Shown here: positions 53,301 through 58,900 of the stretch, one piece after another
How the letters are laid out: each line of letters begins with the position of its first letter
Numbering within the stretch: the first letter of the stretch is position 1
Assembly: GCF_032341175.1 (NCBI RefSeq)
Contig: NZ_CP135435.1
Location: 1,426,001 to 1,490,000, forward strand
Direction of reading: 5' to 3'
Origin: Bacillus sp. DTU_2020_1000418_1_SI_GHA_SEK_038
Lineage (GTDB): Bacteria; Bacillota; Bacilli; Bacillales; Cytobacillaceae
DNA length: 64,000 bases
Notes under the pieces: model-generated
Told to the model about the DNA's origin: nothing
The model's input: the letters and a program-made list of their open reading frames with translations, nothing else
Database searches by the model: none
Position numbers and translations under genes: made by a program

Positions 53301-53663
53301 CTAATCAATTGATATTTTATCAGCATTCCCTTCCAAAAAATCTCTAAAATTAACTCCCCAATCACAAATGGAAGTTACAACGGGTTCTAGAAGTAAACCA
53401 ATTTCACTTAGTTGATACTCTACTTTAGGAGGTACAACCGGGTATACAACTCTAGTAATGATATTATCCTCTTCTAATTCCCTTAATTGTCTAATTAACA
53501 TACGTTGATTGACATTGGGAAGATATTTTTGTATTTCACTTAACCTCAATGGAGATTGTTGGAGTAAACACCATATAATTGCTATCTTCCAACGACCACC
53601 TATCACCGATAAGGCCAAGTCTTTGCTCGTGAAGAACGTTTTATCTTTATAGGAAAATTCCAT
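53301..53663 (-). CDS. HxlR-family winged-helix regulator
   Basis: A 120-residue HxlR/YodB-type DNA-binding protein (IGGRWKIAIIWCLLQQSPLR, then NQRMLIRQLRELEEDNIITR, and the wing VVPPKVEYQLSEIG). Most family members have a sensing Cys in a short N-terminal CPxx motif just before IGGKW. Here the segment reads KDLALSVIGGRWK without Cys; Cys residues remain later in IWCLL and SICDW. It is divergent from the formaldehyde dehydrogenase gene, so it is the probable regulator of the cassette. Confidence 0.88.
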   Translation of the reverse strand: MEFSYKDKTFFTSKDLALSVIGGRWKIAIIWCLLQQSPLRLSEIQKYLPNVNQRMLIRQLRELEEDNIITRVVYPVVPPKVEYQLSEIGLLLEPVVTSICDWGVNFRDFLEGNADKISID

Positions 53664-53696
53664 ATTATTTACTATCTCCTTCTATTGTAATATGTT

Positions 53697-53720
53697 TATA
53701 GTGACAAAAACGTCAGTATT
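53697..53720. promoter_or_regulatory. Candidate HxlR operator in the divergent gap
   Basis: TATAGTGACAAAAACGTCAGTATT has dyad symmetry (TGAC, 6 nt, GTCA, with TA-rich outer arms) midway between the regulator and adhC-like gene. Inference only. Confidence 0.4.
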
Positions 53721-53790
53721 GTCCCGTTAATTATAATGTGTAATTATATAAATTGTAAATACTATAAAATAAAGGAAAGAAGGGATTCAT

Positions 53791-55813: not shown

Positions 55814-55880
55814 GCTTGTTTCTTAATTTACTGCCCAAACGCTGTGGAAAAAAATACGTTTGATAGGAGGTAGAGATGTT

Positions 55881-58211
55881 ATGGATTTTAAAAACATGTT
55901 AGCTAATAGCCGTGTTAAACCATACTTATTAAAAGCCCGTTTTGGGATTGAAAAGGAAAGTCATCGCGTTGATCTAGCAGGAAATTTAGCTAACACCGAT
56001 CATCCTAGGAGCTTTTCAGTACGAGATGACCATCCGTATATTCAGCGTGATTTCTCGGAAACACAGATGGAATTAATCACGCCTGTAACGGAGTCGCTAG
56101 AGGAGCTGTTTAATTACTTAGCAGCGATCCATGATGTGGCTTATCGTTCTATAGGCGATAATGAAATGCTTTGGCCATTAAGCATGCCGCCACAGCTGCC
56201 TGAGAATGAGGAAGATATCATAATTGCGAAATTGAATAATGTTGAAAATGTTCAATATCGGCAGGCGCTATCGAATTCCTATGGCCGCCGTAAACAAATG
56301 ATTAGTGGGGTTCATTTCAATTTTGAATTTGGCGAGGAGCTCATCCAAGCATTATTTATCTTACAATCAGAACTTCAAGATTATCGGGAATTTAAAAATG
56401 AAGTGTATCTAAAAGTTACAAGAAACTACTTACACTATCGATGGCTATTCACTTATTTATTTGGTGCTTCTCCTATTAGTGAAAAGAACTTTTTTGAAGG
56501 AGACTCTTTCAATCAGGCAGTAAGAAGCATTAGAAGCAGTAAGTTTGGCTATATAAATCACGAAGATGTTAAAGTGTCTTTTAGCAGTATACAGAACTAT
56601 ATAGCAGACCTTTCTTTAATGGTGAAAAAAGGCTTCCTAGTAGAAGAAAAAGAATTTTATTCAGCTGTTCGTTTAAGGGGTGGGCAGCGTGTTTCCGATT
56701 TAAAAAGAGAAGGTGTTCAGTATATCGAATTGCGTAACATAGACATTAACCCTTTTGAAAAGAATGGAATGAGCTATGAGCAAGCAGAGTTTCTACATCT
56801 TTTCTTAGTTTATCTATTATGGAAGGATGAAGGGGAGAATTGTGATGAGTGGGTAAAAATCGGCGATGACTACAATAATGCAGTAGCTCTTGAGCATCCA
56901 TTCACGCACACGCAATATGAAATTGAGGCAGAAGCCATCTTGGATGAGATGGAGCATCTAGTAGATATCTTGGATTTGTCTATTTCTGATACATTATTTG
57001 CTAATGTGAGAGATATGCTTAAGGACCCAAGTAAGACTTTAGCTGGCAGACTCTATTCAGTGAGTGAAAAAAGCAATCAAAGTCAAGTAGCTACATCCAT
57101 AGCAAAAGAAAATTATCAAACATCCTGGAATCAACCGTATTTATTAACAGGATTTACTGATATGGAATTGTCCACTCAAATATTAATGTTTGATGCTATC
57201 CAGCAAGGAATCAAGCTAGAGATCTTAGATCGGGAAGAACAATTTTTGAAGCTTCAATTAGAAGATCATGTGGAATATGTGAAAAATGGCAATATGACTA
57301 GTAAGGATAGCTATATTTCACCCTTAATTATGGAAAATAAAACTGTAACAAAGAAAATTCTTCACCAGCATGGATTTCGTGTGCCGAATGGGGAGGAATT
57401 TAATCATAAGGAAGACGCTCTGCATTCCTATAAATTATTTTCCACTAAAGCCTTTGTTGTGAAGCCTAAAACAACAAACTATGGCTTAGGCATATCTATC
57501 TTCAAGGAAGGTGCAAGTTACGAAGATTATGAAAAAGCCATCTCACTAGCATTTAAAGAAGATTCATCTGTTTTAATTGAGGAATTTCTAAAAGGAACAG
57601 AATATCGATTTTTTGTGTTAAATGATCAAGTGCTTGCTGTATTATTACGAATTCCTGCAAATGTTAAAGGGGACGGCAAACAAACTGTTGAAGAATTAGT
57701 CATTCAAAAGAATCGTGATCCATTAAGAGGAAGCAGTCATCGAACACCTTTAGAAACGATCCAATTAGGAGAGTTGGAAAACCTTATGCTGAAAGGCCAA
57801 GGGTACCGAATGGATTATATTCCGGAAAAAGATGAAGTCATTTATCTGCGAGAGAATTCTAATATTAGCACAGGTGGAGACTCAATTGATGTAACAGACC
57901 AAATTCCTGATGATTACAAAAAAGTAGCAGTGGAAGCGGTAGCTGCAATCGGTGCCAAAATTTGCGGCATCGATTTAATTATTGGAAATACAGATGCCCC
58001 TGCATCAGATAAAGATGCTTATGGAATAATTGAAGCGAACTTTAATCCATGTATGTACATGCATATCTATCCCTATAAGGGCGAGTCCCGACGTTTAACG
58101 ATGCATATTATCCAGTATTTATTTCCTGAATTATTACAAAGTCAGGAATCAAAGTTAGTCAAATTAGAGGTACCACAAGCAAAGCGCGGATTTACAAAAC
58201 TAAGCTGTTGA
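55881..58211 (+). CDS. gshF: GshF, bifunctional glutamate-cysteine ligase/glutathione synthetase
   Basis: A 776-residue fusion enzyme that makes glutathione in two steps. The N-terminal gamma-glutamylcysteine ligase domain (about 1-470) has RFGIEKESHRVDL, FSETQMELITPV, GVHFNFEF and YIELRNIDINPF. The C-terminal ATP-grasp synthetase domain (about 490-750) has FVVKPKTTNYGLG, LIEEFLKGTEYRFFVL and GIIEANFNPCMYMH. ATG 55881 follows GGAGG at 10 nt; an upstream TTG at 55860 precedes that site. It lies next to two glutathione-dependent enzymes. GshF is typical of Listeria and streptococci. Confidence 0.96.
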   Translation: MDFKNMLANSRVKPYLLKARFGIEKESHRVDLAGNLANTDHPRSFSVRDDHPYIQRDFSETQMELITPVTESLEELFNYLAAIHDVAYRSIGDNEMLWPLSMPPQLPENEEDIIIAKLNNVENVQYRQALSNSYGRRKQMISGVHFNFEFGEELIQALFILQSELQDYREFKNEVYLKVTRNYLHYRWLFTYLFGASPISEKNFFEGDSFNQAVRSIRSSKFGYINHEDVKVSFSSIQNYIADLSLMVKKGFLVEEKEFYSAVRLRGGQRVSDLKREGVQYIELRNIDINPFEKNGMSYEQAEFLHLFLVYLLWKDEGENCDEWVKIGDDYNNAVALEHPFTHTQYEIEAEAILDEMEHLVDILDLSISDTLFANVRDMLKDPSKTLAGRLYSVSEKSNQSQVATSIAKENYQTSWNQPYLLTGFTDMELSTQILMFDAIQQGIKLEILDREEQFLKLQLEDHVEYVKNGNMTSKDSYISPLIMENKTVTKKILHQHGFRVPNGEEFNHKEDALHSYKLFSTKAFVVKPKTTNYGLGISIFKEGASYEDYEKAISLAFKEDSSVLIEEFLKGTEYRFFVLNDQVLAVLLRIPANVKGDGKQTVEELVIQKNRDPLRGSSHRTPLETIQLGELENLMLKGQGYRMDYIPEKDEVIYLRENSNISTGGDSIDVTDQIPDDYKKVAVEAVAAIGAKICGIDLIIGNTDAPASDKDAYGIIEANFNPCMYMHIYPYKGESRRLTMHIIQYLFPELLQSQESKLVKLEVPQAKRGFTKLSC

Positions 58212-58549
58212 ATGACAGTAATGTTTTTTTATGTTCAATCTAAAACAGACATACCCCGTTCTGAGTAGGGACGGGGATAAAATAATTTTGTTTATATAAT
58301 GCTATGTAGAATACTTTCTGACGCATTAAATTTGATAATAAAATCGTTTAAATATATTTTACCCACAATATGCAATGTTTTAGAAAGAATTTTTTTTTCG
58401 TTTTAATCTCTTAATATTATGATTGAGATTATTTGTTTTTGTTTTATATTAATTTTTGATAAGGTTGGACATTCAATAAGTAAGCATAATTGATTTGAGA
58501 ATTTACAAATTGTTGTATAATAATGGCATTAAAGAAAGGAGTTTGAGGG
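58212..58549. other. AT-rich gap between gshF and the CPYC protein
   Basis: No gene. A small hairpin, CCCCGT...ACGGGG (58255-58276), lies near the start without a T tail. The rest is poly-T and AT-rich up to AAAGAAAGGAG before the next start. Confidence 0.5.
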
Positions 58550-58900
58550 ATGATTGCTACTTATGAAGAAAATGCAGCTAGTTTTAATAAAATTGATGCC
58601 GCAAAAGCACATGAATTGGTAAAAGGGGAAGGCGAAGCCGTTATCTATATTGGCAAGGCTGTATGTCCTTATTGTCAAAAATTCATTAAAAAACTAAAAA
58701 AAGTTGCTGAAGAAACTGATACTCATGTCTATTATGTCAATAGTGTGGAAAAATCTGATTTGGAAGGGATTACGGCCTTCCGAAATGAATACGACATTCC
58801 AACGGTTCCAGGTTTCATCTATACTAATGGTGACACCGTAAACGTTAAATGCGATTCATCTATGACAGAAGAAGAAATCAAAGCTTTTATGAATAAATAA
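58550..58900 (+). CDS. Thioredoxin-fold protein with CPYC active site
   Basis: A 116-residue thioredoxin-fold protein. The active-site segment VCPYCQKFIKKL carries CPYC, as in glutaredoxins. The cis-proline region is DIPTVPGFIY. It resembles the short thioredoxin-like group related to bacteriocin-transport accessory proteins. AAAGAAAGGAGTTTGAGG lies before the ATG. Next to gshF, a role in thiol-disulphide exchange with glutathione is an attractive inference, but not shown. Confidence 0.8.
   Translation: MIATYEENAASFNKIDAAKAHELVKGEGEAVIYIGKAVCPYCQKFIKKLKKVAEETDTHVYYVNSVEKSDLEGITAFRNEYDIPTVPGFIYTNGDTVNVKCDSSMTEEEIKAFMNK

Follow-up and report, generated by a model that had tools for sequence, protein, structure and literature searches.

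A putative formaldehyde-detoxification cassette with its own glutathione synthase in a Bacillus genome

The 64,000-nucleotide stretch of Bacillus sp. DTU_2020_1000418_1_SI_GHA_SEK_038 analysed here (NZ_CP135435.1, positions 1,426,001 to 1,490,000 of the forward strand; hereafter the window) carries a cassette encoding an HxlR-type regulator, a glutathione-dependent formaldehyde dehydrogenase (AdhC), an S-formylglutathione hydrolase (FGH), a bifunctional glutathione synthase (GshF) and a thioredoxin-fold (Trx-fold) CPYC protein. Judging from gene content, distribution and insertion site, we consider it very probable that the cassette is a horizontally acquired, self-sufficient unit for formaldehyde detoxification whose activities are, for now, predicted. 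The pathway itself is known; here it comes with its own cofactor synthase, an operator-like site and an RNA element, and it recurs across Bacillota, both on plasmids and at loci unrelated to one another.

The cassette genes and the association of AdhC with GshF

An initial annotation of the window had listed five genes in succession, and open reading frames (ORFs) and curated family scores agree with that list; all five genes are intact and their coordinates stand:

53301..53663, minus strand: HxlR/DUF24-type regulator (hxlR), divergent; PF01638, 100.1 bits (cut-off 20.8)
53791..54906, plus strand: AdhC, S-(hydroxymethyl)glutathione dehydrogenase (class III alcohol dehydrogenase); TIGR02818, 713.5 bits (cut-off 543.95)
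54896..55744, plus strand: FGH, S-formylglutathione hydrolase; TIGR02821, 357.3 bits (cut-off 281.7)
55860..58211, plus strand: GshF, bifunctional glutamate-cysteine ligase/glutathione synthetase; NF002688, 1117.9 bits (cut-off 425)
58550..58900, plus strand: thioredoxin-fold CPYC protein, an optional member (19 of the 38 close loci defined below); best Foldseek match 1zma, TM score 0.84

The best matches of AdhC among solved chains are class III alcohol dehydrogenases, and its Arg110 (in VRETQG) aligns with an Arg of the best-matching chain and may correspond to the Arg with which class III enzymes bind the carboxylate of glutathione (GSH). The fgh gene adjoins adhC with an 11-nucleotide overlap, and its product contains GHSMGG at 151, QDDFY at 227 and the His of YDHSYYF at 261, presumably with catalytic roles. 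GshF fuses a glutamate-cysteine ligase domain to an ATP-grasp glutathione synthetase domain; NF002688 covers residues 9-758 of its 783, PF04262 and PF18419 match additionally, and the solved GshF structures PDB 3ln7 and 3ln6 match across almost the full length. Since AGGAGGT precedes the ATG at 55881, that codon is probably the true start of gshF and the listed TTG (55860) too early. Chance adjacency of these genes was rejected, as the same order recurs at other loci.

The CPYC protein was compared both by sequence and by structure. All 16 aligned copies share Cys39, Pro40 and Cys42, and the predicted model (pLDDT 77.6, pTM 0.68) is closest among solved structures to 1zma (40% identity), followed mostly by thioredoxins; by sequence, 1zma is again matched (E 2.8e-30) and glutaredoxins weakly. 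No curated family cut-off was passed, the best score being 39.5 bits for TIGR01295 (cut-off 120). The protein has the fold of the bacteriocin transport accessory protein of S. pneumoniae (1zma), but differs from it in sitting behind gshF and in scoring below the TIGR01295 cut-off of the PedC/BrcD bacteriocin maturation disulfide isomerases. It may have an accessory thiol-disulfide role.

The initial annotation had suggested looking for bacillithiol genes in the host, whose genome is a single contig of 4.47 Mb, and both BshA (582.9 bits, cut-off 273.7) and BshC (E 4e-169; over the cut-off in 192 of 193 family genomes) were found over cut-off. The bacillithiol route is likely kept, and with these genes present GSH would be an added thiol. 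The same genome has no glutathione reductase over the TIGR01421 cut-off (its top four candidates are dihydrolipoyl dehydrogenases) and no 3-hexulose-6-phosphate synthase (HxlA) of the ribulose monophosphate (RuMP) pathway over its cut-off (31 of 200 bits). In the pathway that we propose, GshF would supply GSH alongside the bacillithiol pathway of the host, formaldehyde would add spontaneously to GSH, AdhC would oxidise S-hydroxymethyl-GSH to S-formyl-GSH with NAD+, and FGH would hydrolyse the latter to formate and free GSH. Because FGH would set GSH free, the cofactor would act catalytically and glutathione reductase would not be needed.

The initial annotation had also argued that AdhC and FGH make sense only where GSH is made by the same cell, and the distribution of the genes bears this out. 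GshF is over the cut-off in 14 of 193 family genomes and true AdhC in 6; all six AdhC-positive genomes have GshF, on the same contig and a few kb away, compared with 8 of the 187 genomes that lack AdhC (Fisher P 4.5e-8, without phylogenetic correction). A sample of 299 genomes of the class, drawn from a larger group and with few candidates scored per genome, contained AdhC in 11 and GshF in 45 genomes; GshF was present in 11 of 11 AdhC-positive and 34 of 288 AdhC-negative genomes (Fisher P 2.9e-10, likewise uncorrected for phylogeny). GshF lies beside AdhC in eight of these 11 genomes and elsewhere in the genome in three (G282, G303 and G459), which carry AdhC-FGH without an adjacent GshF and, in two cases, with a divergent HxlR.

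We then examined the neighbourhoods of GshF in named genomes, using the best 80 of 111 confirmed GshF loci and searching up to 8 kb on each side for relatives at 60% identity. At the 38 close loci (GshF at least 65% identical; Peribacillus asahii and Ammoniphilus resinae each supply two), we found AdhC in 37, FGH in 38, HxlR in 35, Trx in 19 and S-(hydroxymethyl)glutathione synthase (Gfa) in 5. The 42 other loci (Streptococcus/Tetragenococcus) had no relative of AdhC, FGH, HxlR, Trx or Gfa in the fetched stretch. Host labels of the cassette include Bacillaceae, Caryophanaceae, Guptibacillaceae, Paenibacillaceae (including Brevibacillus and Ammoniphilus) and Clostridium tagluense. A Cytobacillus oceanisediminis plasmid holds cassette genes, and Paenibacillus crassostreae has rearranged cassette genes on plasmid pPC01, together with Gfa, a Mu-type transposase and AAA genes, and a decayed cassette on plasmid pPC02.

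Some variation was seen around these loci. The two plasmids of the Paenibacillus strain (loci L157 and L160) have backbone proteins in common, and differ in that cassette and transposase are intact on pPC01 and decayed on pPC02. Gfa joins the cassette in varying positions (L083, L086, L089, L096, L104 and L157); no Gfa relative was found in the window. At L079, L081 and L136 a pair of ABC-transporter genes adjoins the cassette upstream, with first members 94-96% identical, possibly as part of a larger unit.

Site of acquisition in the host genome

GshF or AdhC is over the cut-off in this genome alone among 36 genomes of the genus, so that the 35 others searched lack the cassette; the initial annotation had named as a refuting outcome that all close relatives carry it by vertical descent. 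Seven congeners were examined at the corresponding site, which lies between the yhjD-like gene and the LCP gene. G052, the nearest of those examined (LCP 95% identical), and G031 have a gene for an S9 peptidase (662 and 681 residues) at the place of the cassette; G059, G030, G056 and G029 have about 2-3 kb there, and G058 about 0.2 kb. In the window, homology ends at 53123 and restarts at 59112, and pieces of the peptidase gene are found at both edges:

53130..53147, plus strand: left S9-peptidase scrap; 18 nucleotides, exact match inside the G052 peptidase gene (E 2e-4)
59044..59165, plus strand: right S9-peptidase scraps (59044-59107 and 59112-59165), G052 residues 296-316 and 645-662 (tblastn E 0.037 and 4.5e-6)

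The scrap at 59044-59107 is weak as protein (E 0.037) and includes a 16-nucleotide exact match at 59044-59059 (E 0.003). The scraps keep the order of the peptidase gene across both sides of the cassette, and because of this order we conclude, from the sequence, that the cassette either took the place of most of an S9-peptidase gene or landed in one that was already decaying.

Placement of the cassette between yhjD and yhjE, as first annotated, held in part. A VTT-domain protein (PF09335) is present at the yhjE place, but an LCP gene (PF03816) intervenes between it and the cassette, and the 131-residue 'yhjD' protein has no match in Pfam or NCBIfam, so that this name comes from the initial annotation alone. 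With ComK (PF06338) and a signal peptidase (PF10502) also nearby, the neighbourhood, as we take it, resembles the comK-yhjD-yhjE-sip order of B. subtilis.

Regulator, operator-like DNA and hairpins

The regulator matches PF01638 and, below the cut-off, MarR; a Pfam scan gave no match to the MerR family. Its best solved chain is 7bzd (HxlR). According to PMC7835342, Cys11 of B. subtilis HxlR crosslinks to Lys13 in formaldehyde sensing, and Tyr99 lies against helix 1 of the other subunit in the dimer. Residues were counted in the regulators of 37 of 42 loci given. The Cys11 position is Thr in 33, Ser in 3 and Asn in 1; all 37 retain both the Lys13 equivalent and Cys100, and 36 have Cys32. In the window regulator, Thr12 stands at the Cys11 place, Lys14 is the equivalent of Lys13, and Cys100 aligns with the Tyr that we counted as Tyr99. 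In G282 and G303 the regulator retains Lys14 and Cys100 but lacks Cys32, and its residue at the Cys11 position is Asn. A Cys at the Tyr99 place is also seen in YtcD, in 7kd3 and in the L072 regulator; Cys100 is accordingly only a candidate sensor residue.

For the DNA between the genes, the 44 loci given yielded 36 divergent HxlR-AdhC gaps and 42 FGH-GshF gaps. Two genomes are represented by two entries each (L062/L079 and L064/L081), such that the 36 divergent gaps represent 34 loci and 33 distinct stretches. The sites of interest in the window are:

53698..53721, plus strand: operator candidate ATAGTGAC-N6-GTCAGTATTG, the sole exact match in the genome
53732..53737, plus strand: TATAAT box downstream of the operator candidate, without a recognisable -35 at 17 bp
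53759-53730, minus strand: hxlR promoter-like site TTTACA-18-TATAAT, from the promoter scan
55776..55814, plus strand: terminator/attenuator-like hairpin in the FGH-GshF gap; 16 pairs, z -5.44
53225..53285 (approximate), minus strand: terminator-like hairpin after the end of hxlR; folding energy of 53215-53295 -24.6 kcal/mol (z -4.35); not among the sites found by the terminator scan
58250..58280 (approximate), plus strand: terminator-like hairpin after gshF; z -3.16 for 58240-58300; not among the sites found by the terminator scan

The motif GTGAC-N7-TCAGTATT occurs in 36 of 36 usable divergent gaps, with a copy 85-92 nucleotides before the adhC start in each, and a variant is present in G303 (L242), whose GshF sits elsewhere. 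It overlaps the expected -35 place of the adhC TATAAT box and lies downstream of the hxlR promoter-like site; promoter-like sites as such are no commoner than in shuffles (23 versus 25.2). A regulon beyond the cassette was rejected, because the genome contained five further matches, all with three mismatches, compared with four in the reversed control. We propose that the HxlR-type regulator would bind an operator of its own in the hxlR-adhC gap and would switch the cassette on under aldehyde stress. B. subtilis HxlR is an activator (PMC7835342, PMC11577753); for adhC, operator binding may either repress or activate.

In 39 of the 42 FGH-GshF gaps there is a hairpin of the form AATATCCACATT-loop-AATGTGGATATT with a T-rich stretch after it; the other three (L084, L107 and L136) fall below the score line of 11. 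Covariation was analysed in 36 distinct rows, which had been picked for having the hairpin, a choice that inflates the percentage of paired cells more than the double changes. Eight of 15 pairs changed on both sides and 97.2% of the cells were paired, values that 0 of 500 shuffles reached, and slid versions of the alignment dropped to 35-58% paired. The terminator scan returned four terminator-like sites, compared with 3.0 in shuffles, and this hairpin was among the four. An Rfam identity was rejected, as no family reached its gathering threshold in 52500-60500. We propose that this conserved intrinsic-terminator hairpin after FGH would lower transcription into gshF and likely throttles it; lowered gshF transcription would then give much dehydrogenase and hydrolase and little cofactor synthase. 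A separate gshF promoter behind the hairpin is equally compatible with these data.

Gene histories, rival explanations and known systems

Trees and distances were calculated, by a quick method, for the 36 loci that have all four genes. In the GshF tree, Psychrobacillus insolitus pairs with the P. crassostreae plasmid (99), which is a cross-family pair, and Brevibacillus invocatus with Paenibacillus antibioticophila (100); the two Peribacillus asahii copies are placed apart, and the window has no supported partner. Over all 36 loci the gene distances correlate (AdhC-FGH 0.67, AdhC-GshF 0.73, FGH-GshF 0.84; null maxima 0.26, 0.31 and 0.46), a correlation that is carried by Sporosarcina/Planococcus.

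A number of results weigh against a single, mobile formaldehyde unit. Without Sporosarcina/Planococcus (25 loci), the AdhC-GshF correlation falls to -0.09 (null maximum 0.459) and that of FGH-GshF (0.49) is barely above its null maximum of 0.457; AdhC-FGH stands at 0.31 (null maximum 0.546). At silent sites AdhC has diverged less from the window (0.13-0.46) than GshF has (0.40-0.65) at 22 of 22 compared loci, with the two almost tied at L157 (0.44 and 0.45). A terminator-like hairpin falls inside the supposed operon, the Trx gene is optional and missing from half of the close loci, and the known formaldehyde-sensing Cys is absent from the regulator. The transposase (TnsB), AAA (TnsC) and integrase proteins of pPC01 match nothing in the window, and TnsB or integrase matches nothing at the 38 close named loci. 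Flanks elsewhere hold few mobile genes: in a survey of 100 flank proteins, hand-chosen from 199 flank ORFs of loci other than the Planococcus locus and nine of those in Sporosarcina, the only mobile families among the 25 commonest of 113 shown were IS110 (three) and phage integrase (two); no mobile vehicle was found, and one common vehicle was rejected. Composition was likewise rejected as a sign of foreign origin, since G+C (0.362 versus 0.371) does not set the cassette apart.

The initial annotation had proposed that the genes were acquired together and that the GshF and AdhC phylogenies be compared with the species tree. The distances of the two genes correlate over the 36 loci but disagree once Sporosarcina/Planococcus is removed, and congruence as proof of a single unit fails there. 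In view of this disagreement, joint acquisition holds for the set of functions, which the genus distribution and the scar support, but not for one unbroken haplotype. As the silent divergence of AdhC is below that of GshF throughout, the cassette genes may not share one history, and AdhC may have been exchanged more often or be codon-constrained. Nine of the 36 divergent gaps, representing seven distinct loci (L062/L079, L064/L081, L082, L085, L092, L093 and L103), contain the operator motif two or three times, and adhC-like fragments lie upstream of an intact adhC, as a start-like piece in the L082 gap and at 4458-4801 in L096; together the extra copies and fragments fit repeated exchange or duplication of adhC at its 5' end.

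Vertical descent from an ancient Bacillales operon, with loss on a massive scale, would account for the Caryophanaceae rows, mostly Sporosarcina, which need 2 changes in the GshF tree compared with 10.8 when shuffled, and these few changes make descent within that group likely. As an explanation of the cassette as a whole it is highly improbable, and was rejected on the genus distribution (1 of 36), the GshF tree with its supported pair of P. insolitus and the Paenibacillus plasmid, and the S9-peptidase scar; moreover, the window flanking genes were not found at the other loci examined, and plasmid copies of cassette genes exist. Alternatively, GshF could be a passenger independent of the formaldehyde genes beside it, expressed on its own from behind the hairpin and providing GSH as a general redox buffer, which is in our view unlikely. 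It would suit the separation of FGH from GshF by the hairpin in 39 of 42 gaps, the differing histories of AdhC and GshF, and the occurrence of GshF without AdhC in 8 of 14 GshF-positive family genomes and 34 of 45 in the class; however, GshF of the cassette kind is near AdhC at 37 of 38 loci and the others at 0 of 42, and a redox buffer would want the glutathione reductase for which no match over the cut-off was found.

The cassette could also serve mainly against S-nitrosoglutathione (GSNO) or general carbonyl and electrophile stress, with formaldehyde secondary and the regulator sensing quinones, nitrosative stress or another electrophile. As background, the hydrolase and Gfa suit formaldehyde and not GSNO, and the presence of FGH at 38 of 38 close loci and of Gfa at 5 of 38 and on pPC01 speaks against this alternative, which we regard as quite improbable. 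In its favour, the Cys11 used by B. subtilis HxlR for formaldehyde is missing in 37 of 37 cassette regulators, so that the inducer could be another electrophile, and adhC of H. influenzae is needed for protection against GSNO (PMC3499171).

The preferred reading, a formaldehyde unit acquired horizontally, can be extended into a more detailed and distinctly tentative one, for which we would claim less than even chances: a mobile, cofactor-carrying operon would provide a private, stress-induced supply of GSH that cycles through AdhC and FGH alone, next to the bacillithiol pool of the host, with the hairpin as a throttle, and recipients that already make GSH would have the AdhC-FGH core with no gshF beside it. 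The regulator would sense formaldehyde by another crosslink, for example between Lys14 and Cys100 at the dimer interface, an idea that follows from Cys100 sitting where Tyr99 of HxlR packs against helix 1.

We know of no GSH synthase in the frmRAB and nmlR-adhC-estD operons, unlike the cassette, which carries its own. Those operons (E. coli; Neisseria and Haemophilus) resemble the cassette in combining a class III alcohol dehydrogenase and an S-formylglutathione hydrolase with a dedicated regulator, but use FrmR or the MerR-type NmlR in place of an HxlR-type protein (PMC4776306). B. subtilis HxlR-hxlAB and AdhR-adhA/yraA likewise have an HxlR-family regulator and a thiol-dependent dehydrogenase, but hxlAB belongs to the RuMP pathway and AdhA is described as bacillithiol-dependent (PMC11577753, PMC8879981 and PMC7835342); this genome has no HxlA over the cut-off, and Cys11 is replaced in the cassette regulators. 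GshF of Streptococcus and Listeria is bifunctional like that of the cassette (PMC4360819); the 42 Streptococcus/Tetragenococcus gshF loci differ in having no relative of the other cassette genes or of Gfa at 60% identity in the fetched stretch. Titles and abstract openings of the open-licence PMC matches listed, a set mostly outside subscription journals, contained no description of a GshF-AdhC linkage in Bacillota. Gene transfer is not expected to favour enzymes whose cofactor might be lacking in the recipient, and here the cofactor genes come too. If the predicted functions hold, the host would be a natural setting in which to test GSH and bacillithiol side by side within a single cell, and the HxlR family could be searched for a second chemistry of formaldehyde sensing.

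Lastly, a few GshF loci differ from the cassette. In L069, L070 and L072 (genomes G008, G098 and G148), a GshF of another kind (40-44% identical) lies directly behind a MATE-family efflux gene (TIGR00797, 228-239 bits), and a GshF match on an Ilyobacter plasmid (H15) likewise overlaps an annotated MATE gene. In L073 (G015), GshF is split over two reading frames at 8477-10809, in pieces 39-51% identical. Locus L159, on Klebsiella grimontii pNY3A (CP079755.1), has a 75%-identical GshF whose neighbours are an IS4 transposase and a protein annotated as small, acid-soluble and of spores; these suggest that the record contains Bacillus-type DNA, through assembly mix or transfer.

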